Assembly (NCBI GenBank): GCA_001797335.1
Contig: MGPE01000003.1
Span: forward strand, 1-61,745
Source of the DNA: Deltaproteobacteria bacterium GWA2_38_16
GTDB lineage: Bacteria > Bdellovibrionota > JACOXK01 > 2-02-FULL-40-11
DNA length: 61,745 nucleotides
Direction of reading: 5' to 3'
Shown: in pieces, positions 9,916-44,576 of the stretch
How positions within the stretch are numbered: position 1 is the stretch's first letter
How the letters are laid out: each line of letters begins with the position of its first letter
Notes under the pieces: generated by a model
Seen by the model: only the letters and a program-made list of their open reading frames with translations
The model's database searches: none
What the model was told of the DNA's origin: nothing
Position numbers and translations under genes: made by a program

Positions 9916-11271
9916 ATGCCTGAGAGGCTACTGGAACTATCTATTTACGCATTGGGAGCTTTAATTGGGATATTGTTAATTTGGGCTATCTTGCGGGAAT
10001 TACTCATTAAAGTGTCATCTTCAAAAGAAGAAAAACGAGAGCTTCAAACTAAAAAACTTTTTGAAGAATGGCTCTACGGGAATGATATCAAACGAAAAGT
10101 CATTATCCAAAAACTTAAAAAAATGGGTTCTGCTGCTTATCTTGAACCCTTTTTCTTTGAGCTCTTTGAAGGATCTGAGAAAGAAAAAAAAGAAGAATTA
10201 AAAGTTCTATTTGAATTGGTGGGTATACAGGCTGAACTTCGGCGGATTTTAAAAGAGTCTTCAGATGTGATTCAGCGAGAAAAATCTGTTTTAAAATTGG
10301 GAAAAGTAGGGGTTATTTATGATGTTCAATTTTTAATTGATGCTTATAGAGATCCTGAAGAACATAGTTTGGTAAAACAGTGTTGCGTCCAAGCTATTTA
10401 TGATTTGGTAGAACCTCTATTTCACGAGCAGGAACAAGCCATGGCTAATTTTGGACTTTTGGTTCAGCTCTTTGATATTCCCAATGAAAATTTAAGATAT
10501 CATTTGGTCAGAACCATTGCTGCTTCAAAAATGCCTGTTGAAGATATTTTGCCTCATTTATTGAAACTTCAAAATGATTTTGGAAAAGAAAGTGCTCTAT
10601 TTGTGTTAGAGCAGTGGAATCATCCAGAGCTCTGTCAGATTGTCTATGATTATTTGGATGATTTAAATCCTCACATCCGATCTATCGCTGTCTCTCTTTT
10701 GGGAAAATGGAAGGATGAAGAGGCTATTCTTCTTCTTTTTAAGAAGTTATCTGACCCCGATGAAATGGTTCGCCTTTCGACGGTAGATGTGCTGACTCAT
10801 TTTAAAAATTCAGCTATTTTAAAACAGCTGACGCTTCACTTAAGTGATCCTTCTTCTCTGGTAAGGGCAAGATTATTATGGGCGTTGGTATTAAAAAAAG
10901 ATCAAAAGATTTTTGATCGAGCTATTGCCATGCTTCAAGAAATGGATTTTCAAAAACTCTTTTTTGCTCAGATCAAGCTCAAGCCTCAAGAAGAATCTCA
11001 GCAGGTTTTTGAATTTTTAGGGGTAGATTATCGATTGTTTGTGAAAAAATATGGAGTAGAAGATCATGGGTTTTCAGCATTTGTGAGCACAGCACGAGAA
11101 AGTCAGGACGTGGCTCTTCGAAAAAGAGCCATGATGGCATTGCAGCTGTGGAAAGATAAAGATGTTATTTCTGTTTTTAACGACATTTTAAATTCAGACC
11201 CTGATCCTACGAATCGTCTTTATGCCAAAAAAATGTTGGAGCGTTTAAAGATGAAGGATGTGGTACCATGA
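9916..11271 (+). CDS. Membrane-anchored HEAT-repeat protein
   Basis: A 451-residue protein with a single N-terminal transmembrane helix (residues about 9-30) followed by a charged linker and helical repeats through to the C-terminus. HEAT-like units with the proline/aspartate signature are seen (DLNPHIRSIAVSLLGKW, DPDEMVRLSTVDVLTHF, DPSSLVRARLLWALV, DPTNRLYAKKML). The repeats probably form a cytoplasmic scaffold at the inner membrane. It opens an operon that overlaps into the transporter gene by ATGA, so it may tether or regulate the glycan synthase or the importer. The start has a GAAGGGA site 9 bases upstream. The precise role is unknown. Confidence 0.8.
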   Translation: MPERLLELSIYALGALIGILLIWAILRELLIKVSSSKEEKRELQTKKLFEEWLYGNDIKRKVIIQKLKKMGSAAYLEPFFFELFEGSEKEKKEELKVLFELVGIQAELRRILKESSDVIQREKSVLKLGKVGVIYDVQFLIDAYRDPEEHSLVKQCCVQAIYDLVEPLFHEQEQAMANFGLLVQLFDIPNENLRYHLVRTIAASKMPVEDILPHLLKLQNDFGKESALFVLEQWNHPELCQIVYDYLDDLNPHIRSIAVSLLGKWKDEEAILLLFKKLSDPDEMVRLSTVDVLTHFKNSAILKQLTLHLSDPSSLVRARLLWALVLKKDQKIFDRAIAMLQEMDFQKLFFAQIKLKPQEESQQVFEFLGVDYRLFVKKYGVEDHGFSAFVSTARESQDVALRKRAMMALQLWKDKDVISVFNDILNSDPDPTNRLYAKKMLERLKMKDVVP

Positions 11272-13439
11272 AAAAAAATATATTTTTTTTCATGTTTCTT
11301 TTTTCTTCTGTGTCTTTTGTGGCTTTGGCGGCAGATCTTCATGTTTGGCAATTTAGTATGGATGAAGAACAGTCTCGGTTTATTGTCGAACGTTTTGAAA
11401 AAGAAAATCCAAATATTAAAATTCACCTCCAACAATTAAGTTGGGATTTTGGAAACGATAAAATTATTACAAGCATGATAGCGGGTAATGCTCCGGATAT
11501 TTTTGAAATTGGATCAACGTTTGGCCCTCACTTTTCTCAAAGTGGTGTACTTCGAGATCTTACAGAAGAGGTGAAAGATCTAAAAGATAAATATCTCATG
11601 TGGGAACCCGTGACGCATGAAGGTAAAATCTATGGAATGCCATGGCTCGTGGGAACGCGATTTTTATTTTATAATAAAGTATTATTTAAAAGAGCGGGTT
11701 TGGATCCTCATCATCCTCCTAAAACATGGTCAGAACTTCTTTCGGCAGCAGAAAAGATTAAAAATCTTGGGCCAGATATGTATGGGTATGGAATTTCTGT
11801 AGCGGAAGAATTTTCTCCATGGCAAACGTTTATCCCATATTTATGGAATGGGGGGAGCGATGTTTTGTCTTTAGATCTCAGTCAGACCATTTTAAATAGC
11901 AGGGCTACACAGAATACGCTTTCTTTTTATCGTCAGTTAAAATCTTTTTCTCTTCTTAATCGCCAAGAACAAATTGATCAGATGTTTTCTGCTGGAAAAG
12001 TAGGCATCATGCTGTCTGGCGCTTGGAATTTTAAGTCCATTGCCAAAACAAATTCATTATTAGAGTACGGGGTGACAACCGTACCCACGCCCGAAGAGCA
12101 TCTGCCTCCTTATTCTTTTGGAGGAGGAGAGATGTTGGTGATTCTTAAAAAGAGTTCTTATCCAAAAGAAGCTTTTACTTTTGTGCAATATTTAACTTCC
12201 AAAGAAGTGGAGATTTTTTTATCGAAAGAGCAAAGAAATGTTTTGCCTTCATTAAAAGAAGCTTTAAATGATCCCTTTTTTTCCAGCGACTTTAGAATGA
12301 AAGGTTTTTCAGAACAAATGCGTTTTACCAAAACTCCCCCAGCTCATATCGGGTGGATAAAAATGGAACGTGTTTTATCTTCGATGATTGACCAAGTGAT
12401 GTTGCAAGAAGAGCCCATTGAAAAAGCTATTCAAAAAACGTCTTTGGATATTGACCGTATCCTTCAGGAAACTCATGAAAAAGGAGAAATTTCAGATAAA
12501 AAACTGACTGTGTGGATTTTATTATTAATAGTAATTTTATTTTTAGGATGTTGGTTTTTCCGAAATCGACTGGAGCCTATTGGGGCCTTTTCAACGTGGA
12601 TCTTTATTTCTCCATGGATTTTACTTTTTTTGATTTTTAGTTTGTATCCGTTGCTGTATGCTTTTCTCATTAGTTTTTCAAGTTATCATGTATTAACTTC
12701 TCATCTTTCTTTTATTGGGATTCGAAATTATATTGAAATTTTAAAAGACTCAGAATTTAGGAAAGCATTATATCATACGCTCTTTTTTGCTGTGGGAACG
12801 GTTCCTTTTACGCTGGTTATTTCTATTCTTTTAGCAACCCTTATTGATCATGGAAAAGTTCCATTCAAATCTCTTTTTCAGGCAGGATTTTTCTTGCCAG
12901 TGGTAACTTCTATTATTGTTATTGCCACTCTTTTTACTTATTTTTATTCGGAAAATGGTTTTTTAAATTTTATATTAACAACGCTTTACCTCCCAAAACC
13001 AGATCCTTCGTGGCTCATTCATAAAACGTGGGCATTGCCAGCGATTATGGCTATGGCAGTGTGGTCTAGCTCGGGTTATTATCTCATTTTATTTTTGGCA
13101 GCTCTTCAGTCGATCCCTCAATCTTTGTATGAGGCCTCAAGGCTGGATGGAGCTAATGCGGTTCAGCAATTTTTTAAGATTACTCTGCCTCAACTAAAGC
13201 CCATGATTTTATTTGTGGTGGTGATTAATACGATTAATTCACTTCAAGTATTTCCAGAAATTTTTACAATGACCAAAGGGGGACCGGCCAGATCGACGAC
13301 AACAATTGTGTATTATCTCTACGAAAAGGGGTTTAGTGAATTTAAAATGGGTGAAGCATCTTCAGTAGCCTATCTTTTAGCGCTGATCATTTGTGCGTTT
13401 TCATATTTTCAGATGCGCCTGCTGAGGGAAAAAATATGA
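11268..13439 (+). CDS. Sugar-binding protein fused to MalF-type ABC permease
   Basis: A 723-residue fusion. Residues 1-21 are a signal peptide (cleavage after VALA); about 22-400 form an extracellular solute-binding protein family 1 domain (DEEQSRFIVERFEKENP, PWLVGTRFLFYNK, GAWNF). A transmembrane helix near 408-430 then leads into a CUT1 MalF-like permease with six predicted helices and the EAA loop EASRLDGANAVQQFFKITLPQ. The receptor would therefore be permanently tethered to the channel in the periplasm. The reading frame is continuous with no sign of a missed stop. Its partner permease overlaps by ATGA. No ATPase is encoded here, so a shared MsmX/UgpC-type ATPase elsewhere is likely. Confidence 0.9.
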   Translation: MKKNIFFFMFLFSSVSFVALAADLHVWQFSMDEEQSRFIVERFEKENPNIKIHLQQLSWDFGNDKIITSMIAGNAPDIFEIGSTFGPHFSQSGVLRDLTEEVKDLKDKYLMWEPVTHEGKIYGMPWLVGTRFLFYNKVLFKRAGLDPHHPPKTWSELLSAAEKIKNLGPDMYGYGISVAEEFSPWQTFIPYLWNGGSDVLSLDLSQTILNSRATQNTLSFYRQLKSFSLLNRQEQIDQMFSAGKVGIMLSGAWNFKSIAKTNSLLEYGVTTVPTPEEHLPPYSFGGGEMLVILKKSSYPKEAFTFVQYLTSKEVEIFLSKEQRNVLPSLKEALNDPFFSSDFRMKGFSEQMRFTKTPPAHIGWIKMERVLSSMIDQVMLQEEPIEKAIQKTSLDIDRILQETHEKGEISDKKLTVWILLLIVILFLGCWFFRNRLEPIGAFSTWIFISPWILLFLIFSLYPLLYAFLISFSSYHVLTSHLSFIGIRNYIEILKDSEFRKALYHTLFFAVGTVPFTLVISILLATLIDHGKVPFKSLFQAGFFLPVVTSIIVIATLFTYFYSENGFLNFILTTLYLPKPDPSWLIHKTWALPAIMAMAVWSSSGYYLILFLAALQSIPQSLYEASRLDGANAVQQFFKITLPQLKPMILFVVVINTINSLQVFPEIFTMTKGGPARSTTTIVYYLYEKGFSEFKMGEASSVAYLLALIICAFSYFQMRLLREKI

Positions 13440-14245
13440 AGAAGATAATCTTATTTTTATTTCTATGTTGTCTTCTCGTCATTTCCCTTTTTCCTCTTTG
13501 CCTCATGTTTACGACGGCCTTTAAACCTGAAGGAAATCTCCTCATGTCGATGAATGAGCTTTTTCCAAAACAGTGGACCGTAAAAAATTTTAAAGATGTA
13601 TGGGCAGCTGGCCCCTTTGATCAATATTTTTTAAATAGTGTATTTGTCGGGATATGTGTGACCCTTGGAAATATTATTTTTTCTTTGATGGTGGCCTATG
13701 CGTTTGCCAGAAGAGAATTTTTAGGGAAAAAGCTTTTTTTTGGAACGGTACTTCTCATGATGATGATCCCAGCGCAAACCATCATGGTGCCCACCTTTAT
13801 TTTAATGAAACATTTTGGGTGGCTTAATACCTATTGGGCGTTAATTGTGCCTTCGCTCGTTTTGCCCTTTAACGTATTTTTATTAAAACAGTATTTGCAT
13901 CAATTACCCTTAAGTCTTGAAGAAGCGGCAAAACTCGACGGTGCCAGCGATTTTCAAATTTTGTTTAAAATTGTAATGCCTCTTTCAAAGCCTGCGTTGG
14001 CCGTTGTGGGGATTAATACTTTTTTAGGTGCATGGAATACTTTTTTATACCCATTTTTACTGACAAATACGACAGAAATGAGAACGCTGCCCGTGGGATT
14101 AGCGCTCTATAAAGGACTTCATGGGGTGGATTGGGTTCATCTCATGGCCGGAGCAGCTTTGTCTTCTGCTCCTGTGATTCTTATTTTTCTTGTCTTTCAA
14201 AAAATGATTATTAGAGGCTTAACCGCCGGAGCCATAAAGGAGTGA
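13436..14245 (+). CDS. MalG-type carbohydrate ABC transporter permease
   Basis: A permease of about 269 residues, the second membrane subunit of the CUT1 sugar importer. It has six hydrophobic segments and the EAA motif EAAKLDGASDFQILFKIVMPLSKPA that contacts the ATPase. I take the start at 13436, where ATG overlaps the stop of the fused receptor/permease; an upstream ATG at 13391 would add 15 residues that do not resemble a membrane N-terminus. It is followed after 3 bases by the GH94 phosphorylase, so imported sugar is probably a phosphorolysis substrate. Confidence 0.92.
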   Translation: MKKIILFLFLCCLLVISLFPLCLMFTTAFKPEGNLLMSMNELFPKQWTVKNFKDVWAAGPFDQYFLNSVFVGICVTLGNIIFSLMVAYAFARREFLGKKLFFGTVLLMMMIPAQTIMVPTFILMKHFGWLNTYWALIVPSLVLPFNVFLLKQYLHQLPLSLEEAAKLDGASDFQILFKIVMPLSKPALAVVGINTFLGAWNTFLYPFLLTNTTEMRTLPVGLALYKGLHGVDWVHLMAGAALSSAPVILIFLVFQKMIIRGLTAGAIKE

Positions 14246-14248
14246 ACG

Positions 14249-16636
14249 ATGTTTATTAAAAAACCAAAATTAGAATTAAAGACGGCTTGGGGATTCTTTA
14301 ATGAACAGCATGAGTATGTGATTACACGGCCAGATACCCCAAAACCGTGGATTAATTATTTGAGTAACAGCCAGTATCATGCCTTGGTATCGCAAACAGG
14401 AGGAGGCTATAGTTATTATAAGGATTCTAAATTACACCGAATACTACACTGGGAAAATTTTAGATCCGATCGTCCAGGGCGTTATGTATTTATAAAAGAT
14501 CAAAAAACGGGGGAGGTGTGGACTCCCAATTGGCAACCTTTGTGTAAGAGACTCGATTATTGGCAGGCTACTCATGGTTTTGGATACAGTTCTATTTATG
14601 CAGCACATCAAAATATGGAAGCGACTCTCACCTATTTTGTTCCTCCCGAAGCTTCCTGTGAAGTGTGGGTTACTACTTTTAAAAATACAAGTTTAGAAAC
14701 AAAAACTCTTTCCATTTATCCCTACGTGCATTGGCTTTTGGGAGATTTTTACATGGAGCAGGATCATAAAAATATTATGGTTCTCTATAATGAGGGATAT
14801 TATGATCCAGCTCTTCAGTCGATTGTGGCTTTTAAGCATCCCAATAGTAGTCGAAAATATGAAACGTATGGATTTTTTGCCAGCTCTCTAAAACCTTCTG
14901 GTTATGAGTTAAATTATGAAAAATTTGTTGGAAAGTATGGGAGCATATCAAATCCTAAAATGCTAAAAAAGGGGAAGCTTTCTTCAGAGCCTGTTCGGGG
15001 AGAAGAGATGGTGGGAGTAATGGAAATTCCTCTGACCTTAAAACCACAACAAGAAGTAACCTGTGTTTTTGTTTTAGGCTTTACAGAAAAAAAATCAGAC
15101 ATTGAAAAAATCATTAAGGATCATGTGAAGCCACAAGAAGCCAAGCATCTTTTACAAAAGACAAAAGTGATGTGGGAAACTAAATTATCTGGAATGAAAG
15201 TTGAAACCCCTGATCCCCAATTTAATCTCATGACGAATTTTTGGGGAAAATACCAATTATTGCACATTACACGGTGGCGATCGGCGTCTTTTTATAGCCC
15301 CGGAGAAGGAGGAAGGGGATATCGAGATACGGCTCAAGATGTGGAAGGAGTGGCATCGATTGATCCCTTTTTATGTCGAGAGTGGATTGAACGGCTTTTG
15401 ACTTATCAATATAAAAGCGGACATGCCGTGGCTGGTTTTTCAGATATTGAAGGGCCATGGGAAATTGGAACGGACAAAGGGATTTTAGGGAAAAGTGATG
15501 TGGCCGTGTGGATTCCTTTTATGGTGTCTACCTATGTCAAAGAAACAGGAGACAAAGATTTTTTACAAAAAGAGATTTCATTTTTAGACGGAGATAAGGC
15601 TTCCGTATGGGAGCATTGTCTTAGGGCCATGGAACATTTTTGGAAGAGTCGAGGAGAACATGGCTTGCCTCTTTTTTGGAAAGCCGATTGGAACGATGCT
15701 TTGGATCGATGTGGAATTCAAGGAAAAGGAGAATCTGTTTGGTTGGGGCAGGCGTATGCACGAGCTTTATTATGTGTAGAGGAAATGGCTTTGTGGTTGG
15801 GAAAAAAAGAAGATGAAGCACTCATGCATTCTCGATATGAAGAAATGAAAAAAATTATTAATGATGTGGGGTGGGATGGAGATTGGTATCGGTGTGTTTT
15901 TACTGACTCTCAAAAAATTTTAGGATCAAAAACAGGTGAGGCCAATCGAGTGTATTTAAATACACAATCGTGGGCCATATTATCCAAGGTTGCCCCAGAG
16001 TTACGAGCTGAAAAATGTTTTCGTGCTATTGAAGAGCACTTGGAAACAGAAATGGGTCCGGCCATGTTTTCTCCCTATTATACCCAATATGATCCCCAGA
16101 TTGGACGAATGACAGCCTTTGCGCCGGGGACGAAAGAAAATGCGGCTATTTTTTCTCATGCGTGTGCATTTCTCATTGTAAGCTATGCGATGAGTAAAAA
16201 AGGAAAAAAAGCCTATGAACTTTTTACAAAAATTGCTCCTTATAACCCTGCCAAAACAGTAGAGCGATACCAGACAGAACCCTATGTGTATGCCGAATAT
16301 TGTTATGGTCCTGGAAATGCTCAGTTTGGAATGGGAGCGTTTAACTGGAATACGGGGACAGCGGCGTGGATGTTTATTGCGGCAACGCAGTGGATGGTAG
16401 GGGTGAGGCCAGTGTTTGAAGGATTAATGATAGATCCCTGTGTGCCTTCTCATTGGAAAACATTTTCTATAGAACGGGCCTTTCGAGGAGCGCTCTATAA
16501 AATTCATATTGAAAATCCAGAAGGCGTGGAGAGTGGGGTGAAGGAAGTGACGGTGGATGGGAAGAGAATAGAAGGGAATGTTATTCCTCAGATGCCGGCG
16601 GGAAAGGTTTATGAAGTTCATGTGCTAATGGGATAA
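14249..16636 (+). CDS. GH94 glycoside phosphorylase (cellobiose/chitobiose phosphorylase-like)
   Basis: A 795-residue cytoplasmic enzyme of the GH94 (former GT36) family, which cleaves beta-linked di- or oligosaccharides with phosphate to give a sugar 1-phosphate. The N-terminal beta-sandwich carries the family motif EYVITRPDTPKPWINYLSN followed by GGGYSYY and DRPGRYVFIKD; the (alpha/alpha)6 catalytic domain has the general-acid Asp in WKADWNDALDR near residue 479 and a GTASWM-like end (NTGTAAWMF). No signal peptide is present. Which linkage it acts on (beta-1,2, 1,3, 1,4 or GlcNAc-based) cannot be read from the sequence. It sits between the sugar importer and a glycan synthase. Confidence 0.9.
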   Translation: MFIKKPKLELKTAWGFFNEQHEYVITRPDTPKPWINYLSNSQYHALVSQTGGGYSYYKDSKLHRILHWENFRSDRPGRYVFIKDQKTGEVWTPNWQPLCKRLDYWQATHGFGYSSIYAAHQNMEATLTYFVPPEASCEVWVTTFKNTSLETKTLSIYPYVHWLLGDFYMEQDHKNIMVLYNEGYYDPALQSIVAFKHPNSSRKYETYGFFASSLKPSGYELNYEKFVGKYGSISNPKMLKKGKLSSEPVRGEEMVGVMEIPLTLKPQQEVTCVFVLGFTEKKSDIEKIIKDHVKPQEAKHLLQKTKVMWETKLSGMKVETPDPQFNLMTNFWGKYQLLHITRWRSASFYSPGEGGRGYRDTAQDVEGVASIDPFLCREWIERLLTYQYKSGHAVAGFSDIEGPWEIGTDKGILGKSDVAVWIPFMVSTYVKETGDKDFLQKEISFLDGDKASVWEHCLRAMEHFWKSRGEHGLPLFWKADWNDALDRCGIQGKGESVWLGQAYARALLCVEEMALWLGKKEDEALMHSRYEEMKKIINDVGWDGDWYRCVFTDSQKILGSKTGEANRVYLNTQSWAILSKVAPELRAEKCFRAIEEHLETEMGPAMFSPYYTQYDPQIGRMTAFAPGTKENAAIFSHACAFLIVSYAMSKKGKKAYELFTKIAPYNPAKTVERYQTEPYVYAEYCYGPGNAQFGMGAFNWNTGTAAWMFIAATQWMVGVRPVFEGLMIDPCVPSHWKTFSIERAFRGALYKIHIENPEGVESGVKEVTVDGKRIEGNVIPQMPAGKVYEVHVLMG

Positions 16637-16644
16637 AAATCTTT

Positions 16645-19254
16645 ATGAGAAAAATATGTGGGTATGAGTGGGTGGCGCCAAAAGAGAGGCTCCGCCGCCG
16701 CGCCCGGAGCGTATGCGAGGACGGACGGTGGAGATTGTCTTTTGGCGACAGGACCCGGAAGATCATATTTTTGTCCCTATGTTTTTGTTTTAGCTCTTTA
16801 AGTTGGGCACAGAAGAACCCTCTATGGCAAATCCAAAAAGAACTTCAAGTCGGTGGTTCTGATATTCCGGTGGTTCCCCTGAAAGCCCAAAAAGCTCTCT
16901 GTGAACTTTCAGAGAAGACAGGAGTGTATAAAATTCTTTTTAATACCTTAGGCGGAAATGAGTGTAAGATAAAAATTCCCCTTCAACCTGTCATCCCGAG
17001 CAAAGCGAGGGATCTCAGTCACAGTGCACTCTTGGCTTTTCGAATTCGAGGGGAAAAAGATGTTCAAAATTTTAATGTAGGATTAGAGGCGAACGGTCAC
17101 ATTGAATACGTTGGTCCCATTTTAGAATATCTTCCCTTTTCTGTCATATCTTCTTGGACGCAAACCGGAATTCCCATTCGGGAATTTGAAGCGAAGGGGG
17201 CCAGTGTTTCCCAAGCGCAATTCCTCGTGTTTGATTTTAATGAGCCGGCTGAGGGAGTTTTAGAAGTAAAAGATGTGGTTTCGGTTCCTCGAAAATCTCA
17301 TTCAGAGCATTGGGACCCCGTGGTTATTCTTCTTTCTCAGTATGATTTAAAACGAGTCAAAGACATTAAAACAATTTCAATGGGACACTATGGCCAAGAG
17401 TTTGGTTGGAAAGTAGGCCAATTGTATCATCATTCCCCTGAAAAATCGTTTTCATCGGGGAAAATTGATATGGGAATGCTTAAGAGTATCCCTCCAACGA
17501 TTGTCGATGGATACGCTAAGATAGCGGATTTCAATAATGGACTTGAAAATCAAGTAGGTGGATTTTTTAATGAATTCCAAAAAGCACCTTCTAAAAGTTT
17601 TGTAACGCTAAATCCAACCATTTTTCGTGGTTCTGTGGGGAGAAGTTTAGAAATTATTTATGAAAAAGAATCTCAAGGATTTTGTGGGGCCTGGGTGCAT
17701 TTTTTTGATTTTAAAAAACCTCCTAAAGAAAGAATCTATTTAGATGCTACAAAGCTTCAGTATTTATCTTTCTGGGTTCGAGGAAAAGAGGGGAAAGAAG
17801 ATGTGTCCATTCAGTTGGCCGATGCCAGTTGGGAAAAAACAGAAGACTCTGTGTATTATGGAAAAATATCTGATTATTTGAAAGGGGGTATTACGACAGA
17901 ATGGCAACGAGTCTTGATACCACTTAAACAAGAGTTTTATAAAAATCTCCACTTTAAAAAATTAGCGGGATTAACTTTTAATTTTCGAGAAAAATCTAAA
18001 GGGACTCTGTATGTGGATGATGTGGCTTTTTTAACGTCTCGAGATTCTTCGCCTTGGGTCAGTGACCCTTCGGCTCAGAATGACAGGGGGGAGCCGGAGA
18101 AGGTGAGTAAAAAGCTCTATAAAGCCATGTGGCTTTGGCATACCGTTCGTCAACTTAAAAATCCAAAAGCTCAAGATGAGTTTTTTAAATTCTGTACTCA
18201 AAATGGCGTTAATCTTATTTTCTTTCAGCTTCAATATGAACTTCAGAAAAAAACAGATGGAACGTATGGCTGTATTTTAAAATATGAGCCAGAGCTTCGA
18301 AAGTTTATTGCTCGTGCTTCTTCTTATCAAATTGAGGTGCAAGCCCTGGATGGATTTAGTCGCTTTGCCTTAAAGCCTTGGCATGAAAAAGTGTATGCCC
18401 AGATTCGATCGATTATTGAATATAATAAACGTGTTTCTTCATCGGAACGCTTTACGGGGATTCATCATGATAATGAGCCTTATTTGATTCCCTCTTATTG
18501 GGGAGTTATTCGCGAAGGGGTCATGAAGCAGTATCTAGAATTGTGTGAAAAATCACAAGCGTTGGTTCAAAATTCAGGCCTTTCTAATTTTGTATTTGGG
18601 GTAGATATCCCTTTTTGGTACGAGGAGGCGAATTTTGATTTTGAAGTTCCCGTTGAAATCACTTGGCGAGGAGTTCGAAAGCCCGCTAGTTTTCATATCA
18701 TTGATATTGTCGATAATGTGGGGATTATGGATTATCGCACCAAAGCGTATGGAGCAGATGGGACCATTGTTCATGGAAGGAATGAAATTTATTATGCCAA
18801 TTCGGCTGGTAAAAAAGTGTTAGTGGGGATTGAAACCTATCCCTTGCCTCATGAAATTTTTGCTATTTTTAGATCCAACCAGCCCGTTCAACTGGCCAAT
18901 CTTTCCCAAAAAATTCAGTTAGATCCAAGACAGCTTTTTATGTTTTTTGATCAATATCAAGAGCTAGGCATTGCCTATATGCGTCGATTTCGAGAAGATT
19001 TAAAAGATACTCCAGAAAGTATTTCTAAAGAAATTTTTAAACTTAAAATTCAAGATAAAGAAGTCATTTTAAAATCAGAAATTGCAGTAGATGTGCCTTC
19101 TTCAAAATTATCTTTTTCTGGGATGAATAAGGATTATTTTTTAAGTATTTATGAGGATACGCAAAACTACTTTATGCATGAGCCTAGTTTTTTTGGAATG
19201 GCGATTCATTATTATGAAACCTATCGACAGCTCATGGAAGGACCTTCTTCATGA
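16645..19254 (+). CDS. Large secreted carbohydrate-active protein with CBM-like and barrel-like parts
   Basis: An 869-residue protein of unknown exact function. Residues about 38-56 (IIFLSLCFCFSSLSWAQ) are a signal peptide preceded by an abnormally long Arg-rich n-region made by a GC-rich palindromic insert. Two jelly-roll-like regions follow; the second (about 320-470, ending GTLYVDDVAFL) looks like a CBM11/CIA30-type carbohydrate-binding fold. The C-terminal third, with GIHHDNEPYLIP near residue 607 and later HEIFAIF, looks like a TIM barrel with an Asp/Glu pair that could be catalytic. Two short dispersed repeats are embedded in frame (16990-17016, 18041-18084). A TTG at 16736 behind GGTGGAGA is an alternative start. 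It overlaps the GT2 gene by ATGA. Confidence 0.75.
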   Translation: MRKICGYEWVAPKERLRRRARSVCEDGRWRLSFGDRTRKIIFLSLCFCFSSLSWAQKNPLWQIQKELQVGGSDIPVVPLKAQKALCELSEKTGVYKILFNTLGGNECKIKIPLQPVIPSKARDLSHSALLAFRIRGEKDVQNFNVGLEANGHIEYVGPILEYLPFSVISSWTQTGIPIREFEAKGASVSQAQFLVFDFNEPAEGVLEVKDVVSVPRKSHSEHWDPVVILLSQYDLKRVKDIKTISMGHYGQEFGWKVGQLYHHSPEKSFSSGKIDMGMLKSIPPTIVDGYAKIADFNNGLENQVGGFFNEFQKAPSKSFVTLNPTIFRGSVGRSLEIIYEKESQGFCGAWVHFFDFKKPPKERIYLDATKLQYLSFWVRGKEGKEDVSIQLADASWEKTEDSVYYGKISDYLKGGITTEWQRVLIPLKQEFYKNLHFKKLAGLTFNFREKSKGTLYVDDVAFLTSRDSSPWVSDPSAQNDRGEPEKVSKKLYKAMWLWHTVRQLKNPKAQDEFFKFCTQNGVNLIFFQLQYELQKKTDGTYGCILKYEPELRKFIARASSYQIEVQALDGFSRFALKPWHEKVYAQIRSIIEYNKRVSSSERFTGIHHDNEPYLIPSYWGVIREGVMKQYLELCEKSQALVQNSGLSNFVFGVDIPFWYEEANFDFEVPVEITWRGVRKPASFHIIDIVDNVGIMDYRTKAYGADGTIVHGRNEIYYANSAGKKVLVGIETYPLPHEIFAIFRSNQPVQLANLSQKIQLDPRQLFMFFDQYQELGIAYMRRFREDLKDTPESISKEIFKLKIQDKEVILKSEIAVDVPSSKLSFSGMNKDYFLSIYEDTQNYFMHEPSFFGMAIHYYETYRQLMEGPSS
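16676..16747. repeat. GC-rich nested palindrome inserted at a gene start
   Basis: Outer arms CGCCAAAAGA (16676-16685) and TCTTTTGGCG (16738-16747) pair perfectly and enclose a very GC-rich core with an inner hairpin GCTCCG (16689-16694)/CGGAGC (16705-16710). Its base composition is unlike everything around it. It lies between the first codons of the 16645 gene and the hydrophobic core of the signal peptide, giving an Arg-rich peptide when translated. Confidence 0.7.
16990..17016 (-). repeat. Dispersed palindromic repeat inside a coding region
   Basis: A 27-base unit which, read on the minus strand, starts GAGATCCCTC and ends TCGGGATGAC, and matches the unit in nnrD (58420-58446) at 23 of 27 positions. 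Its length is a multiple of three and it adds the peptide VIPSKARDL to the 16645 protein without breaking the frame. Confidence 0.75.
18041..18084 (+). repeat. Dispersed palindromic repeat inside a coding region
   Basis: The unit starts GAGATTCTTCG and ends CTCAGAATGAC with a central hairpin GGGTCA-G-TGACCC. The same ends occur in the intergenic element at 51292-51362. It is translated as a Ser/Asp/Pro-rich loop right after the second carbohydrate-binding-like domain of the 16645 protein, a likely interdomain linker. Confidence 0.7.
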
Positions 19255-20777
19255 TGACAGCCATTTTCTTTATTGTTTATTTTTTGCAAGCTTCCATCAT
19301 TGCCTATTTAATTATCTATGACGCGCTGTCTTTGATTTTATTTTTTGTAGCGACGTATAAAATTAAAAACTATGTCCGTTGGGGAAGGGTGTCTAATCTT
19401 AATTTACTCTACGATCATCCCGGACTTCCTTCGGTTTCTTTTTTAATGCCAGCCTATAATGAAGAAAATGCCATTGTGGAAAGCATTAAGTCTCTTATGA
19501 ATCTTCATTATCCCTGTTTCGAGATCATTATTATTAATGACGGATCGACAGATTCTACTTTTAGGCGAGTTAAGAACGCATTTTCCTTTGAGCCTTTTTT
19601 AGGCTCTTATTCATCGACTTTAGGGACTGAAAAAGTACTGGGTATTTATGAAATTCCAAGACAAGAACTAAGGGACAAACCCAATATTGTGCGTATCATT
19701 TTAATAGACAAGAAAAATGGAGGCAAGGCAGATTCTTTAAATGCGGGCATTAATATTGCCCAGCATTCTTATGTTTGCAGTATGGATGCCGATAGTTTGA
19801 TGGATAAACAAGCACTTCTGATTGGAATGAGACCTTTTTTAGATCATCCCGGATATGTTGTAGGTGTAGGAGGGCAAGTAGGAATTGTTAATGGTTGTAT
19901 CGTTGAAAAAGGGAAGGTTCTAAAAGTGGGATTACCTAAGAAATCAATAGAGCGATTTCAAATTGTAGAATATGCCCGATCCTTTAATATAGGACGAACG
20001 GCACTGGCGACTTTAAATTCCCTCGTTGTACTTTCAGGTGTTTTTTCTATTTTTAATCGTGAACTTCTTTTAAAAATCGGGGGCTATTTAACCAAAAACA
20101 TGAAAACAGAAGTGGGCCTTCGATATTGTGGGGCCGTGGATACCGTATGTGAAGACATGGAAATTGTGGTGCGCCTGTATCGATATATTCAAGAAAATAA
20201 AATAAAGGCTAAGATAGAATATCTTCCTTTCCCCCTAGCGTGGACAGAAGCTCCTGCCAGCTATGTTAATTTAGGAAAGCAACGAAATCGGTGGTATCGA
20301 GGATTGATGGAGTCTTTATGGTTTCATAAGCGCATGCTCTTTAATCCCTTTTATGGGAGAACCGGGCTTTTTGCGATGCCCTATCAATTTATTTTTGAAT
20401 TTTTAGGACCGTTGTGTGAATTTTTGGGCTATGTGAGTTTACCTATTTTTTATGTTTTAGGCTATATCCACACACCCTATTTAATTTTATTTTTATTGCT
20501 GGCTATTGTGTATGGGATGTTTTTGTCAGTGCTGACGTTACTCGTAGGGATGTGGATTGGGCCAGGCTATAAAACGGAGTATGGGAACTATAATATTTTC
20601 TTTTCAACCGGCCTTAAGGACATATTATTATTGATATTTTTTGCTCTCTTGTCTAACATTGGATATAGGCAGTATTTGATGATGTGGCAGGTTAAAGGAT
20701 TTGTGGACTTTCTTAAAGGCAAAAAATCTTGGGAAAAGTTCGAACATACCGGTTTTCAGCAGTCATCCTCTTCTTAG
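19251..20777 (+). CDS. Processive family 2 glycosyltransferase (glycan synthase)
   Basis: A 508-residue inner-membrane glycosyltransferase of the PgaC/cellulose synthase/hyaluronan synthase type. Hydrophobic N-terminal segments (about 1-38) precede the GT-A domain with PAYNEEN, INDGST (about residue 95), MDADS (about 178), the catalytic base region CEDMEIVVRLY and the processivity motif QRNRWYRG (about 344-351). At least three membrane segments close the protein. No PilZ domain is visible. The product is a beta-linked polysaccharide of unknown monomer. It overlaps the TPR/barrel gene by 49 bases, consistent with synthase and exporter made together. Confidence 0.9.
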   Translation: MMTAIFFIVYFLQASIIAYLIIYDALSLILFFVATYKIKNYVRWGRVSNLNLLYDHPGLPSVSFLMPAYNEENAIVESIKSLMNLHYPCFEIIIINDGSTDSTFRRVKNAFSFEPFLGSYSSTLGTEKVLGIYEIPRQELRDKPNIVRIILIDKKNGGKADSLNAGINIAQHSYVCSMDADSLMDKQALLIGMRPFLDHPGYVVGVGGQVGIVNGCIVEKGKVLKVGLPKKSIERFQIVEYARSFNIGRTALATLNSLVVLSGVFSIFNRELLLKIGGYLTKNMKTEVGLRYCGAVDTVCEDMEIVVRLYRYIQENKIKAKIEYLPFPLAWTEAPASYVNLGKQRNRWYRGLMESLWFHKRMLFNPFYGRTGLFAMPYQFIFEFLGPLCEFLGYVSLPIFYVLGYIHTPYLILFLLLAIVYGMFLSVLTLLVGMWIGPGYKTEYGNYNIFFSTGLKDILLLIFFALLSNIGYRQYLMMWQVKGFVDFLKGKKSWEKFEHTGFQQSSSS

Positions 20778-22777
20778 CATTTCTCTTTAGTTTTCATCTG
20801 GCTTTTCCTCAGGATTTTTCAAAAGACATTGATCATTATCGAAAGCTGGTTAGAGAAAACCCCAATAATATTGAAGCACTGGTGCAGTTGGCCAAGTATT
20901 TGAGTTGGAGTGGACGATGGGATGAATCTATTGATATTTATAAAGAGGCCTTAAAAAAACAACCGGGGAATGTCGATGCGGAACTTGGCTTAGCGGCTGT
21001 TTATTCTTGGCAAAAAAAATATTCTGAATCCATTCGACTTTATAAAGGGATTTTAGCAAAACATCCGGATCATATAGATGCCATGACAGGATTGGCCAGA
21101 GTCTATAGCTTTCAAGGCAGTCATACTCAATCCATTCAAATCTTTCAAAAATCTTTAAAATATGATTCTGAAAATAAAGAATCTTTATTGGGATTAGGTC
21201 GAGTGTATAGCTGGAATAAGCAGTATGTGGAGAGCGAAAAAGTATATCGTAAACTTCTCCAAAAATATCCAAAAGATCCAGAAGTGCTTAAAGGGTTAGC
21301 CGATACGTATAAATGGAGTGGGCAATATACCAAGGGCATTGATATTGAGCTTAAGATCTTAGAAATGACGCCTAAAAATATAGATAGCCATATATCAATT
21401 GGGTATATGTATGGGGAATTAGGTGCCATTAAGCAAAGTATTCATTGGTATGAAAAAGCCGCTAAAATTGATCCCGAGCGGGGAGATATTCAGGCCCATT
21501 TAGGGATGTTATATAGCCACACAGCTCAAGTGGATGCGGCTGCTACTGCTTTTAAAAAGGCCATTTCGCTGCAAGAACGAGATATCCAAAGTTATATTTC
21601 CTTGGGACGCGTGTATAGCTGGCAAAATAAAATAGAGGAATCCGAAAAGCTCTATAAGAAAGCGTTAGAAATTAACCCTCAAAGTGCGGGAGCATATGCT
21701 GGACTAGGACAGCTTTACTTTTTTAATGGGCAGTGGAGAAAATCAATTGAATATTACAAAAAAAGTTTATCCATTGATCCTTCGTATGTGGAATCGCTTC
21801 AAGGGTTAAAACGGGTGAGTCTTTTAAAAGCGCCGGTGTATATTACCCGATATAATTTATTTGTGAATAATTACCACAGTGCGTTGACCAATCAGTTAAC
21901 CAATAAAGAATATCAGCATGTGTTTTCCCATGAGCTTACTTATAAATTTGATGCCAATAAGTTGATCGAAGCCAGGGCACTGCTGACCCAATATGCTTCT
22001 AGGGATGCTGAGACCGGTTTTCGAGATTATCTTTATAATGAAAAAATTATGTCTTTAAGGCTGGATTATCCTGTGTGGAAAGATCGACTTTTTTTCTCTG
22101 GAAGGTATGATCAGGAGCTTTTTGAAAATGCCGGCCATCCTCATACCTATAATTTCCGCACTGATGAATGGTTTTCGTCTGGATATAGTTTACTTCGATA
22201 TGAAAAAGGTCCTTTCTTTTCAATTCTTTCTTTTTCCGCTGAACCCAACGTAACTACTCGAGCCGGTGGAACGCTGAATGTAGATCATTTGGCTAGTTAT
22301 GGGATTTCTTCTAGTTATGATTTTAGTGAATATCTTTCAACAATTGCGACATTCTTTTTTAATGATTATACCAAAGGAACTCGGGATCGCAGAGATTGGA
22401 AGGGGATTATCAATTATCGTCTGCCATTTTTTAAGAATTTGGAGCTGGGGTATGAGATGCGGTTTAGAGATCATCCGGCAGAATTGACCCGTTCGGGCAC
22501 ATTTCGACTTCAGGAGCGGTTTTTAAAAGATAAGCTTTTGGTGGAGGGACTGTATCGACTGGATTCTGTCATTGCGAGTGAAAACTATGGGATGACAAAT
22601 AAACATATTTTTCAAACTTTTATTTCCTATCCTTTATTGGATTGGGTGATTTTAACAACTGATACGACGTTTCAAATTAATAAGGGAGCAGATCCTGATA
22701 ATTTTAAAGCCTTTCGGCACTATATTACTTTTCTCTTAGACTGGAAAGCCGTGCGGGGAGGCTACTACAAAGACTGA
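20729..22777 (+). CDS. TPR protein with outer-membrane beta-barrel (polysaccharide exporter type)
   Basis: A 682-residue protein with a signal peptide (about 1-28, cleaved after AFPQ), roughly ten tetratricopeptide repeats (residues about 30-365; units such as DAELGLAAVYSWQKKY and GAYAGLGQLYFFNGQW), and a C-terminal region of alternating aromatic strands (about 367-682) that resembles a YaiO/BcsC/PgaA-type outer-membrane barrel. This layout is known from exporters that move polysaccharide across the periplasm and outer membrane. The start is a TTG inside the GT2 gene; it is the only in-frame start that precedes the signal peptide. It is probably the export partner of the GT2 synthase. Confidence 0.82.
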   Translation: MGKVRTYRFSAVILFLAFLFSFHLAFPQDFSKDIDHYRKLVRENPNNIEALVQLAKYLSWSGRWDESIDIYKEALKKQPGNVDAELGLAAVYSWQKKYSESIRLYKGILAKHPDHIDAMTGLARVYSFQGSHTQSIQIFQKSLKYDSENKESLLGLGRVYSWNKQYVESEKVYRKLLQKYPKDPEVLKGLADTYKWSGQYTKGIDIELKILEMTPKNIDSHISIGYMYGELGAIKQSIHWYEKAAKIDPERGDIQAHLGMLYSHTAQVDAAATAFKKAISLQERDIQSYISLGRVYSWQNKIEESEKLYKKALEINPQSAGAYAGLGQLYFFNGQWRKSIEYYKKSLSIDPSYVESLQGLKRVSLLKAPVYITRYNLFVNNYHSALTNQLTNKEYQHVFSHELTYKFDANKLIEARALLTQYASRDAETGFRDYLYNEKIMSLRLDYPVWKDRLFFSGRYDQELFENAGHPHTYNFRTDEWFSSGYSLLRYEKGPFFSILSFSAEPNVTTRAGGTLNVDHLASYGISSSYDFSEYLSTIATFFFNDYTKGTRDRRDWKGIINYRLPFFKNLELGYEMRFRDHPAELTRSGTFRLQERFLKDKLLVEGLYRLDSVIASENYGMTNKHIFQTFISYPLLDWVILTTDTTFQINKGADPDNFKAFRHYITFLLDWKAVRGGYYKD

Positions 22778-22817
22778 GGGTGACAGGACCCATGAATTTT
22801 CTTTTAATGAGATTTTA

Positions 22818-23633
22818 ATGAGAATAAAGCAGGCTCCATTGATATTACATGAGAGAAGAGTTAATATTAAATTAGTAGAACGTGTGTTGATGTGGGTGGT
22901 CTTGGTATCCGCTCCAACTCAGGATATGACCCGTTCTTATGATACAGTTTTTAGAGAAAGTGGACATTTGGAATATAGGATTAGCGGAGGAAACTTAAAA
23001 CCGAGTACTCCTTTTGAATGGGAGAAAAAAGTTGGACTTCGAAAGCTCTATCTCATCTGGAGTGGAGCTAAAAAAGTGGAGGTAAATGGTACGGAAATAA
23101 GAGCCCAAAAAATTTATACAATAACGGAACAGAAGACAGAGATAATGGCAGCAATTTCAGAAGTGAGTTCTGTTTTTAAGAAAGAAGGAATGTATACGAT
23201 TAAAGGGATCGATATGAAAGAAGCTCCTTTTCAAGGCTACGCAGTGATTGAAGTAGTTGAAGAAGCAAAGGCTCCCTTAAGAGAAATTGTGGTGAAAGCA
23301 GGAATGGCACGACTAAAACCGGGAGAACTCTATACCGTAGAGATGTTGGAAAAAGGAGAAAAGGGGAAAAAAGGAATGATTAGCCGATTTTCAGTGATCG
23401 GTGGGAATGGAAAAGCTGGAAACGGCAGTTCAAATTTATTAAATGGGGTTACTGTCAGTGGAAAGGATGATTGGGATGGTTCGAGTGGGATAAGGTGGGA
23501 TATAGATGATTACGATGTCAAAGAATTTAAGATTTTGTCAGAAAAAGGAGTGAGGTGGTCGATGGATCCTCTACTTCAGTGGCTTTATCCGATTGGAGCG
23601 GTGGTTCAGATCGACCTAGAAGAAGGAAGGTGA
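22818..23633 (+). CDS. Unknown exported or periplasmic protein in exosortase operon
   Basis: A 271-residue protein that I do not recognise. A short hydrophobic stretch (VLMWVVLVSA, about residues 23-32) could be a signal peptide with a long basic n-region, so the true start may be a later codon near 22884-22890. The body is rich in beta-type sequence, and near the C-terminus a Gly/Asp-rich stretch (NGSSNLLNGVTVSG, then DDWDGSSG and WDIDDYDV) could be a calcium-binding or jelly-roll edge; weak resemblance to DUF3344-like domains is felt, not proven. It lies 5 bases before the PEP-CTERM-like gene with a shared GGTGAGG site, so the two are likely co-translated. Confidence 0.65.
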   Translation: MRIKQAPLILHERRVNIKLVERVLMWVVLVSAPTQDMTRSYDTVFRESGHLEYRISGGNLKPSTPFEWEKKVGLRKLYLIWSGAKKVEVNGTEIRAQKIYTITEQKTEIMAAISEVSSVFKKEGMYTIKGIDMKEAPFQGYAVIEVVEEAKAPLREIVVKAGMARLKPGELYTVEMLEKGEKGKKGMISRFSVIGGNGKAGNGSSNLLNGVTVSGKDDWDGSSGIRWDIDDYDVKEFKILSEKGVRWSMDPLLQWLYPIGAVVQIDLEEGR

Positions 23634-23638
23634 GGACC

Positions 23639-24040
23639 ATGAAAAAGATACTCTTTACAACGATGGTGATGGGATTATTCCTCATCATGCAGGGAAGTTA
23701 TACAATTGCCGAGGAAATTACTCGAAGTGTTTCTACTCCCAATGTGCAAGCTTCTGGAACCGTGAGTAATACTGCTACGGCCACAACCGGTGCAACGGTT
23801 ACCCGAGAACCGGGTCAAGTGACGATTAGTGGGATTGCTTCTGCGGTAGGAGTGGTCGACACAAGAACCGTGCAAGGATCTGCCAGTGGAACGTTAAGAA
23901 TCCGATGGGGGAGAGGAACACTGGAACGACAACCTATGCTTCCTCCAGGTGCGCCTGAAATGAATGGGCTTTGGATGTTTGGAGTTGGATTTGTGGTATT
24001 TGGATTTGGTTTGCTGCGGACTCGAAAATATCTATGGTAA
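23639..24040 (+). CDS. Small exosortase substrate with PEP-CTERM-like tail
   Basis: A 133-residue secreted protein: signal peptide 1-24 (MKKILFTT to YTIA), a mature part of only about 80 residues rich in Ser, Thr, Ala, Gly and Val without Cys, then a C-terminal tripartite signal of Pro106-Glu107-Met, a hydrophobic helix (about 111-126) and a basic end RTRKYLW. This is the layout of PEP-CTERM sorting signals removed by exosortases. The gene overlaps the exosortase start by 7 bases, so it is very likely the dedicated substrate. Many Ser/Thr residues could be glycosylated. The start at 23639 has GGTGAGG just before it; an upstream in-frame ATG lies within the previous gene. Confidence 0.8.
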   Translation: MKKILFTTMVMGLFLIMQGSYTIAEEITRSVSTPNVQASGTVSNTATATTGATVTREPGQVTISGIASAVGVVDTRTVQGSASGTLRIRWGRGTLERQPMLPPGAPEMNGLWMFGVGFVVFGFGLLRTRKYLW

Positions 24041-24876
24041 ATAAAGCAGGAGCAGCATTGGTGATTCTTCTCTGTGCTGCTCTTACGTATGTGTTGTTTG
24101 GTTCTTTTTTTCAATATCTATGGCTGACGTGGAAAATGGATCCCTTTTATGCCCATGGGGCTGCGATTGGTGGTCTTAGCATTTTTCTCTATTTTAAATT
24201 TATTTGGGAACACAGATCTTCTTCTATTTTAGGATTATATCAACAAAACATTCTTTTTTCACTTTTGTATTTTTCCCTATTTCTTTTTTTCTTTGTATTT
24301 GGAATTAAAACCCATCTTCCTTTTTTAGGGGGGATGGCCTTTGTATGTTGGTTTATCGCGCTTCAGTGTTTATGGTTTGACCTTTCTTTTTGGAAGGAAT
24401 TTTCATTTCCTGGAGTTTATTTTTTATGGGCGGTGCCTTTGCCGTATCTATCGGAGTTTTCAGGTAGGCTTCAGATCGTTATTGCTTCTCTCTGTGCATC
24501 CATTATTCGTGGTCTGGGTTATTCTATTATTCAAGACGGAATCCGGCTACAATTACCCAATGCCAGTTTTCAGATTGCGTCAGATTGTACGGGAATTAAA
24601 TCATGGCTTGTCCTTTTTTCTCTAGCATCCTTTTTTCTTTATTTTTTAAAGATACGTTTTCAGACAAAACTCATGATTTTTGTAAGTCTTTTGCCTTTGG
24701 CTTTTGTGGTTAATCTCATGAGAGTAACTGTTTTGATTCTGGTTGGGCATTACGCGGGCGAGGTGATTGCTATGAACTATTGGCATGATTTTTCAGGAAT
24801 CTTTTTTTACGGTGTATCAACGCTTTTAATTCTGGGGATTTCAGGGTGTCTTATAAAATTTTTCGACTCATTTTAG
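24034..24876 (+). CDS. Exosortase (exosortase/archaeosortase family)
   Basis: A 280-residue multi-pass inner-membrane cysteine protease-transpeptidase. The three family residues are present in order: Cys185 in SDCTGIKSW, Arg230 in VNLMRVTVLI and His251 in YWHDFSGIFFYG. Eight or so hydrophobic segments surround them. Exosortases process PEP-CTERM-type tails at the periplasmic face. I chose the ATG at 24034, which overlaps the substrate stop; an ATG 63 bases upstream would lie wholly within the substrate gene. The 3' end overlaps the EpsI fusion gene by 31 bases. The subfamily (XrtA-type letter) cannot be assigned by eye. Confidence 0.9.
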   Translation: MVNKAGAALVILLCAALTYVLFGSFFQYLWLTWKMDPFYAHGAAIGGLSIFLYFKFIWEHRSSSILGLYQQNILFSLLYFSLFLFFFVFGIKTHLPFLGGMAFVCWFIALQCLWFDLSFWKEFSFPGVYFLWAVPLPYLSEFSGRLQIVIASLCASIIRGLGYSIIQDGIRLQLPNASFQIASDCTGIKSWLVLFSLASFFLYFLKIRFQTKLMIFVSLLPLAFVVNLMRVTVLILVGHYAGEVIAMNYWHDFSGIFFYGVSTLLILGISGCLIKFFDSF

Positions 24877-26864
24877 CATTAACTCTATTATTGGGTGGGT
24901 TAATTTGGGTAAAACATCGTTATTTTGAACCCGATTTTTCTATCAAGATTCATTTTAAAGATTCTTCTATTCAAGCTCCTTATCAATTTATTGCGGATAC
25001 TTCTTTATATCCTTTTTCTTCGTATGAAGGAAAAATGGCAGCCAGTAGTAATTTTTTTTCAGAAAAATTTATTTCGTACTTTCCATCGGTATTGGGAGAT
25101 TGGGTTGGGAAAGATATTGAACATCAGTATGCAGATATCAAGCTTTTTCGTCTCTATCATCATCAAAAGACCAACGATGATTTATGGCTTATGATGGTTT
25201 ACGGAGCGCATGAAAGTCAATTTCACTCTGCTGAAGTGTGCTACATGAGCGATGGCTGGGATGTAGCGGTGAGGGATATTAAAAAGGTGATGACAGATCA
25301 AGGAACATTTCCCATTCGATATATGATTGCTCAAAAAGGGAATAACATGCATTTGGTGGCATATTGGTATCTCTGGGGAAATCCGAGGCGACGGATTCAA
25401 GAGGGAACATTACTCTTTAGAATTTCTATTGAGCTTCGAGATCAAGAAGAGCGTGGTCAAAAAGCACTGATAGATTTTATGACTCGTCTCATGAATGTAG
25501 TGATGGAAGAAGAAAAGCCCATAGTCCCTGCCTTGGTTCAGACCATTCCCCAAAAGACAACGCTTCCGCCCGTTCAGGTAACTTCTTCTTTTTCGAGGGC
25601 TAAAGAAAAAGCACTGAACTGGATTTTAAATCAAAAAGTGCCAAATACCATAGTCCCTTTTCCCGAAATGGACCGGCGGTATTTTTTATTAAGCTATGAA
25701 CTCAATTCTAAAAATCCAAAAACTCAAAATGATAAAAGCTATCCCTATATTTATAGTCGCGCAGCCATTTACGACAATGCTTTAGGGGTCATTGCCTTTA
25801 CTCAAGCGCATCGTTACACCGAAGCAGAAAATGTGATGGATGCTTTTGAGAGGGTAGTGGGAGAGGATGGGAGCTTATGGTTTAGCTACAATACCCATAA
25901 TGAATGGCCATCTGAGAGCGATCACAGTGAAGCTACCCTTCGAACGGGGGCGAGTAGTTGGGGTGGGTATGCAATAACATATTATTTAAGACAAAAACTA
26001 TTAGAAGATCCTTCTTTTACTCATACCAAATCTTTTAAACGTTATGAGAGTTTAGCTCGAAAAATTTTGGATCGTCTTCTTCAAGAGCAGATTGTAGATG
26101 AGAAAGACCCCAGATTTGGATTCATAACCGGAGGGCAGGGAAGGCACGAGCTGGTATTTGATGAAAAGAGCCGTAAGGTAATTGAAAAATTTAAAGATGA
26201 AAAAATTACTTGGGCCAGTATTGAGCATAATTTAGATGCCTATTTTTTATTGAAGAATATGGAAATTCTCACCCATGATCCAAGATATAAAAAAGCCAAA
26301 GATCTTTTAAAAGAGGCCTTACTTTCTAAAGCCTGGAATGAAAAAGAAGGGCAGTTTAATCGAGGGGTGAGAAAAGAAGAAATAGATTCTGCTATGGCCC
26401 TAGACTGTGCGTCTTGGGGGATTTTATTTTTACTATCCATTGGAGAAAAAGAAAAAGCCAGACAGGCCATGAACGCTATGGAGCGTTATTTTATTCAAGA
26501 TCCCATTCGAGGCGTTTGGGGGTATCGCCCTTATTATGCCGGATTTATTTATGATGAAATGTCTATAAATAAACTTTTTTATCCGCACTGGCCTCAAAAA
26601 AGTTGGAGTGATATTCCGATGGTCTGGTCAGAAGGGTCCCTAGGGGTTGCTATGGCGTATCTCAAGATGGGTGAAAAAGAAAAAGCAAAATCAATTCTAG
26701 AAGAAATATCAAAAATGCAAATGCCTTCTGGAGGATTTCAGTACGCTACCCAAGAAATCCCATTTCAATTTTCACCCTCGCCCTCCATGGCAGGTACTGC
26801 CTGGTTTGCAATGGTCGCTTTAGCCCTTGAAAACGAAACGCTTTTAAAGCTCTTTTGGGACTAA
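24846..26864 (+). CDS. EpsI-domain protein fused to an alpha/alpha-barrel glycosidase-like domain
   Basis: A 672-residue protein with a GTG start. A signal-anchor helix (about 5-23) is followed by an EpsI domain (to about 230): LGDWVGKD and the family motif around His127-x4-Cys132 with Gly137-Trp138 (HSAEVCYMSDGW), and WYLWGNPRRR. EpsI proteins accompany exosortases. From about 265 onward the sequence is a helical repeat region with IYDNALGVIAF, WASIEHNLDAYFLL, MALDCASWGILFL and WSEGSLGVAMAYL, spaced as in six-hairpin (alpha/alpha)6 glycosidases or lyases. Such a fusion suggests that glycan handling and exosortase action are physically joined in the periplasm. It ends the operon. Confidence 0.82.
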   Translation: MSYKIFRLILALTLLLGGLIWVKHRYFEPDFSIKIHFKDSSIQAPYQFIADTSLYPFSSYEGKMAASSNFFSEKFISYFPSVLGDWVGKDIEHQYADIKLFRLYHHQKTNDDLWLMMVYGAHESQFHSAEVCYMSDGWDVAVRDIKKVMTDQGTFPIRYMIAQKGNNMHLVAYWYLWGNPRRRIQEGTLLFRISIELRDQEERGQKALIDFMTRLMNVVMEEEKPIVPALVQTIPQKTTLPPVQVTSSFSRAKEKALNWILNQKVPNTIVPFPEMDRRYFLLSYELNSKNPKTQNDKSYPYIYSRAAIYDNALGVIAFTQAHRYTEAENVMDAFERVVGEDGSLWFSYNTHNEWPSESDHSEATLRTGASSWGGYAITYYLRQKLLEDPSFTHTKSFKRYESLARKILDRLLQEQIVDEKDPRFGFITGGQGRHELVFDEKSRKVIEKFKDEKITWASIEHNLDAYFLLKNMEILTHDPRYKKAKDLLKEALLSKAWNEKEGQFNRGVRKEEIDSAMALDCASWGILFLLSIGEKEKARQAMNAMERYFIQDPIRGVWGYRPYYAGFIYDEMSINKLFYPHWPQKSWSDIPMVWSEGSLGVAMAYLKMGEKEKAKSILEEISKMQMPSGGFQYATQEIPFQFSPSPSMAGTAWFAMVALALENETLLKLFWD

Positions 26865-44562: not shown

Positions 44563-44576
44563 CACAAGGAGTGTGT

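Follow-up and report, generated by a model that had tools for sequence, protein, structure and literature searches.

Do a sugar importer, a disaccharide phosphorylase, a glycan synthase, an exporter and an exosortase that are encoded in one run of genes belong to a single system, and, if so, what would that system build? The run lies on contig C3 of a 2.0-Mb genome in 19 contigs from a groundwater-dwelling member of the Bdellovibrio lineage; the whole stretch analysed, 61,745 nucleotides long, is called the window below. An earlier note had described eleven genes at 9916–26864 whose ends overlap or nearly touch, and the ORF listing and a check of the sequence place 11 ORFs over this span, all on the plus strand, with the protein classes it had named (importer, GH94, GT2, TPR/barrel and exosortase) upheld by domain matches. 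We read the run as a single conserved operon that serves a surface glycan and includes an exosortase and a substrate dedicated to each other; its genetics are well supported by comparison between genomes, and its biochemistry we infer.

Organization and boundaries of the run

The genes and features of the run are as follows.

9916–11271, plus strand: HEAT-repeat protein, partner of the GT2, with a membrane segment predicted at its N-terminus (HEAT_2, 6.6e-24)
11268–13439, plus strand: CUT1 importer, sugar-binding protein fused to a MalF-type permease (SBP_bac_1, 5e-44, and BPD_transp_1, 7.9e-15, in one ORF)
13436–14245, plus strand: MalG-type permease (BPD_transp_1, 2.7e-19; GlcU/UgpE/MalG-like)
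14249–16636, plus strand: GH94 disaccharide phosphorylase of the cellobiose/chitobiose type (Glyco_hydro_94, 4.9e-96)
16645–19254, plus strand: secreted protein combining a CBM30/CBM11-like domain with an unclassified C-terminal domain that may be a glycoside hydrolase (CBM30, 3.5e-11)
19251–20777, plus strand: GT2 synthase with processive-type motifs (Glycos_transf_2, 2.5e-21)
20729–22777, plus strand: TPR protein with a C-terminal barrel-like region, probable exporter (TPR families, 1.5e-40)
22818–23633, plus strand: U271, secreted, no recognised fold (eight-sequence alignment, motif GNGSSN..DDWDGSSG.RWDID..DPLLQW)
23639–24040, plus strand: candidate exosortase substrate with a signal peptide and a PPGAPE-TM-RTRKYLW C-terminal tail (alignment of eight)
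23942–24037, plus strand: sorting tail of the substrate (tail model, E 1.8e-19; the model includes this sequence)
24034–24876, plus strand: exosortase, EpsH family (PF09721, 5.3e-37)
24846–26864, plus strand: EpsI (DUF3485) with an N-terminal membrane segment, fused from about 25590 to an unclassified domain of about 420 aa (DUF3485, 2.9e-15; EpsI_fam, 45.1 bits)

The starts of the substrate (23639) and exosortase (24034) genes were corrected by reading the sequence. Most junctions overlap or leave at most 8 bp. The HEAT and SBP-MalF genes overlap by 4 nt, as do SBP-MalF and MalG; MalG and GH94 are 3 bp apart, and 8 bp separate GH94 from the gene of the CBM protein, whose start is uncertain and may truly lie about 90 nt further in. 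The latter overlaps the GT2 gene by 4 nt, and GT2 overlaps the TPR gene by about 49 nt, counted from an uncertain TTG start at 20729. The largest gap of the run, 40 bp, lies between TPR and U271, and is followed by a 5-bp gap between U271 and the substrate gene, a 7-nt overlap of substrate and exosortase, and an overlap of about 31 nt between exosortase and EpsI. Internal terminators, named in the earlier note as able to split the operon, do not stand out: terminator-like sites were looked for in the gaps of the run and found in none of them, and over the region neither these sites (18 versus 18.1 in shuffles) nor promoter-like sites (48 versus 50.2) are in excess. The run is flanked by a divergent gene (9836) and a convergent gene (26866). 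Close gene spacing is also seen elsewhere within the compact window, and spacing alone is for this reason weak evidence of an operon; it is the conserved gene order described below that argues strongly for a single unit. At a distance from the run (44571–50277), the window also encodes an outer-membrane efflux protein, an HlyD protein with a heavy-metal-binding domain and an RND pump, a CusCBA-like metal efflux set.

Conservation across genomes

The window's family includes five other genomes (G001–G005), in assemblies that are partly incomplete (61–92% complete). All 11 genes are present in G004, in the same order and beside the same P5CDH neighbour (loci L051 and L052, and L027), and 10 of the 11 in G002, split over two contigs whose ends fall within GH94, with EpsI lying past the contig end. 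Both halves of the operon are found in G003, where GT2 was not seen, and in G001, which has neither GT2 nor GH94 on a contig that spans importer and CBM protein without a break, its MalG gene containing a short stretch of undetermined sequence; a search of the G001 genome likewise returned no GH94. Because the assemblies are partly incomplete, the absence of GT2 from G001 and G003 is uninformative. G005 has GH94 alone, located elsewhere.

Beyond the family, a genome of another family in the same class (G294) carries the order GH94, a 479-aa protein, HEAT, GT2, TPR, U271, candidate substrate, exosortase, EpsI fusion and TPR, and one from another family of the phylum (G079) carries HEAT, GT2, U271, candidate substrate, exosortase and EpsI fusion, the TPR protein being absent from this locus. 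GT2 relatives are found in 22 of 368 genomes and exosortases in 15 of 368; the two occur together in five genomes of the phylum, from three families, and are adjacent in all five, so that the gene-neighbourhood search proposed in the earlier note does return a recurrent association. The importer and a stand-alone GH94 are joined to these genes only in the window's family.

The unit is made of two modules, a core common to other families and a family-specific addition. The core comprises the HEAT protein, GT2, U271, one PEP-CTERM-like protein, the exosortase and the EpsI fusion; the TPR/barrel protein is an addition to the core within the window's class; and the family-specific module consists of the fused binding protein and permease, the second permease and the GH94 phosphorylase.

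The synthase and its neighbours

The GT2 motifs NDG, DxD, ED and QRxRW are retained in nearly all of 23 sequences, and the D/DxD/ED/QxxRW set of processive enzymes is complete. Assignment of the enzyme to PgaC was rejected (PgaC_IcaA, 105 bits against a cut-off of 422), as was assignment to cellulose synthase (CelA, 30.3 bits against 699), and there is no PgaB deacetylase among the domain matches of the operon. The HEAT protein lies immediately upstream of GT2 in G079, G294, G036–G038 and many other genomes, and the pair also occurs in CSP1-8 and on one actinobacterial contig; in many other genomes HEAT alone precedes GT2, often with an upstream response regulator and a small barrel-like protein. 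The TPR protein shows weak matches to PgaA and BcsC. U271 stands beside the exosortase in G000 (the window's genome) to G004, at two loci of G294 and in G079, and Pfam and PDB searches with it gave no relative. No fold was recognised for U271, the EpsI-fused domain or the putative hydrolase domain of the CBM protein, and profiles A5, A4 and A1 yielded only chance-level matches against PDB and Pfam, except at the edge of the CBM30 domain.

The exosortase and its single detectable substrate

The exosortase (PF09721, 128 bits against a cut-off of 25.7) is the single match in the window's genome and contains the expected triad of Cys, Arg and His (SDCTGIKS, NLMRV, YWHDF); none of the named subtypes (XrtA, XrtV and others) is reached, the best score being 92.3 bits against the 208 required for XrtA. 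Encoded just before it, the candidate substrate of 133 aa displays, on inspection and in the alignment, a signal peptide, a motif, a hydrophobic stretch and a basic end, and this PPGAPE–hydrophobic–basic tail is kept within the window's family. A tail model built partly from the substrate's own tail found no second protein in the window's genome, and PF07589 has no match there, the substrate tail included; this model recognises just 22% of PEP-CTERM instances (PMC1569441). A one-to-one pairing of exosortase and substrate is likely, with the reservation that divergent substrates could escape detection.

Two variant loci were observed. The exosortase homologue of G079 (L090:5587-6423) has a Ser at the position of the expected catalytic Cys, beside a candidate substrate that lacks the PEP-like motif, and given this Ser, exosortase catalysis may not be required everywhere. 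A second exosortase locus of G294, on contig C24 (L089:7571-10499), has no GT2; it encodes U271, a divergent protein with a PGAPEP tail and a short EpsI, and a Lys replaces the conserved WH histidine there.

EpsI and its link to the synthase

The EpsI part of the last gene scores above the TIGR02914 (EpsI_fam) cut-off (45.1 against 42.8 bits), and the domain fused to it has a distribution of its own. In G036 and G037 this domain directly follows GT2, and in G038 it shares one 942-aa ORF with GT2 (40.97% over 432 aa and 31.1% over 508 aa); at the second exosortase locus of G294, which has no GT2, EpsI lacks it. Strong matches to the domain occur in 11 genomes, eight of which also have GT2 (hypergeometric 6e-9, with no phylogenetic correction). 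The domain, as far as these arrangements indicate, travels with the synthase, and EpsI became attached to it. Its position next to or within GT2, together with its absence from the locus that lacks GT2, therefore ties EpsI to the glycan synthase, a link that is the most informative result of the analysis. That the domain is an alpha/alpha toroid, and the putative hydrolase domain a TIM barrel, are guesses.

The importer, the phosphorylase and the CBM protein

The SBP-MalF fusion has full-length counterparts in G001–G004 (63–72% identity), and the importer search gave no match in G294 or G079. The operon encodes the binding protein and two permeases without an importer ATPase. One MalK-type ATPase gene with no importer genes beside it was noted on contig C11 of the same genome (L150:7066-8118), a candidate importer motor. 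Alpha-glucan operons were also observed in G148 (L151:1275-10459) and G142 (L152:3116-12279), in which an SBP-MalF fusion of weaker match is followed by MalG, MalK, amylase and ROK-type genes.

The phosphorylase matches GH94 over its full length and retains ADWND, the motif that contains the presumed general acid; its nearest solved relatives are cellobiose and diacetylchitobiose phosphorylases, both scoring alike. Stand-alone GH94 proteins of this type were found only in the window's family and in G294, apart from two less closely related copies in G295, and the G079 genome gave no match. Most GH94 matches of the phylum fall in long frames (mostly 2000–2900 aa) that resemble cyclic beta-1,2-glucan synthases, and these were discarded as evidence on sugar recycling.

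The C-terminus of the CBM protein has no Pfam or PDB relative and belongs to no recognised GH family; an invariant HHDNEPYLIP and a conserved ET are present in four genomes. Relatives of the protein are encoded next to GT2 in G294 (contig C15) and near GT2 in G300, both genomes without an importer match. Within the gene (16990–17014), an in-frame palindromic GTCATCCCGAGCAAAGCGAGGGATC element adds about 7 residues that the relatives lack; it resembles a dispersed repeat, and a search of the window found no second copy.

Proposed mechanism and alternative readings

Gene content, gene order, conservation, the domain fusions, the single exosortase and the single detectable substrate are observed. 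From them we infer the enzyme activities, the locations, the polymer and its flow, and propose, with a probability of about 0.6, a synthase-dependent surface-polysaccharide operon with a dedicated exosortase–substrate pair and a salvage module. GT2 would polymerise a beta-glycan across the inner membrane, probably with help from the HEAT protein, and the TPR/barrel protein would export it; in the periplasm, the polymer would be bound or trimmed by the EpsI-fused domain and by the secreted CBM protein. Together with the EpsI fusion, and perhaps with U271, the exosortase would cut the tail off the single substrate encoded for it and would deliver this protein, together with the glycan, to the cell surface; this suggests that polymer and surface protein are built together. 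In the window's family, the importer and GH94 would have been added, most simply for the salvage of di- or oligosaccharides.

How this addition relates to the core can be read in other ways. Two functions might merely be co-regulated from one promoter, the importer, GH94 and CBM protein scavenging environmental beta-glucan and the genes from GT2 to the exosortase building the surface. This is a tentative alternative, with which several points agree: the CBM30 and CBM11 families take their names from modules that bind cellulose and beta-glucan, the related SBP-MalF fusion of G142 and G148 belongs to an alpha-glucan operon, and GH94 is separable from the rest, as in G005 and G294. The CBM protein, however, is tied to GT2 and not to the importer in G294 and G300. 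The earlier note had instead conceived a recycle loop, in which released oligosaccharides are imported, phosphorolysed and returned to the synthase; spelled out, they would be clipped from the polymer of the operon itself, and the sugar phosphate formed by GH94 would reach the synthase via a nucleotide sugar. Importer, GH94, CBM protein and GT2 are contiguous, separated in the window by no more than 8 bp and arranged alike in G004, which fits such a loop, as does the presence of a MalK-type ATPase gene elsewhere in the genome, and a phosphorylase, unlike a hydrolase, preserves the energy of the bond that it cleaves. We nevertheless think it rather unlikely: with GH94 missing from G001, the importer unmatched in G294 and neither matched in G079, the loop is not supported as a property of the system, and would be an optional feature, one of several possible readings of a lineage-specific addition.

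It is improbable that the run serves protein anchoring without a free polymer, GT2 glycosylating the substrate or making its glycolipid anchor. The glycosyltransferases associated with XrtG and XrtP are recognised families with weak matches here, and the single substrate has Ser/Thr-rich segments; the processive-type QxxRW motif of GT2, the TPR/barrel exporter and the HEAT-GT2 loci without an exosortase in many genomes nonetheless speak for a polymer. A long shot is that the exosortase and EpsI fusion covalently join the single substrate to the synthase's polymer, with the added domain holding the glycan, as a dedicated protein–polysaccharide conjugation machine. If this were true, EpsI would gain a role and the nucleophile of the exosortase reaction would be named.

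Comparison with known systems

Literature searches, which left most subscription papers uncovered, did not find this gene combination described; the general linkage of exosortases with exopolysaccharide genes has been known since 2006 (PMC1569441). Among systems with related parts, the maltodextrin-type operons of G142 and G148 have the same SBP-MalF fusion followed by MalG, and differ in carrying genes of their own for MalK, pullulanase/amylase and a ROK kinase. GH94 cellobiose and chitobiose phosphorylases with CUT1 importers likewise combine a full-length GH94 with CUT1 permeases, whereas here the binding protein is fused to a permease, the operon has no ATPase and the set lies upstream of a synthase. 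The XrtG- and XrtP-associated glycosyltransferases (TIGR03111, NF053846) are also GT2 enzymes dedicated to an exosortase, but the GT2 of the window scores 76.8 and 26 bits against their cut-offs of 364 and 520. The synthase-dependent PgaABCD and Bcs systems (cf. PMC7112168) share the GT2, the TPR and barrel-like outer-membrane protein and candidate secreted glycan-acting proteins; here, in contrast, no PgaB deacetylase or BcsB-like subunit is recognised, and a HEAT partner, an exosortase module, an importer and a phosphorylase are present.

There are parallels, too, with the PEP-CTERM/EpsH system (PMC1569441), in which an exosortase and EpsI also lie beside exopolysaccharide genes with TPR proteins nearby, and in which substrates also carry a signal peptide and a tripartite C-terminal tail. 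That system has a median of eight substrates, mostly in single-gene operons, whereas here there is one, inside the operon, with a tail invisible to PF07589; EpsI bears an extra domain common to GT2 loci, and neither PrsK nor PrsR is found among the operon's genes. The founding paper left open the attachment target of exosortases and the role of EpsI (PMC1569441). With one exosortase, one substrate, one EpsI and one synthase in one operon, and an EpsI domain that is elsewhere part of the synthase gene, the suspected exosortase–polysaccharide link therefore becomes a small, testable system. We know of no later answer on the attachment target or on EpsI. Two further outcomes of the comparison are a pairing of HEAT and GT2 that recurs in many genomes and three protein domains that belong to no family.
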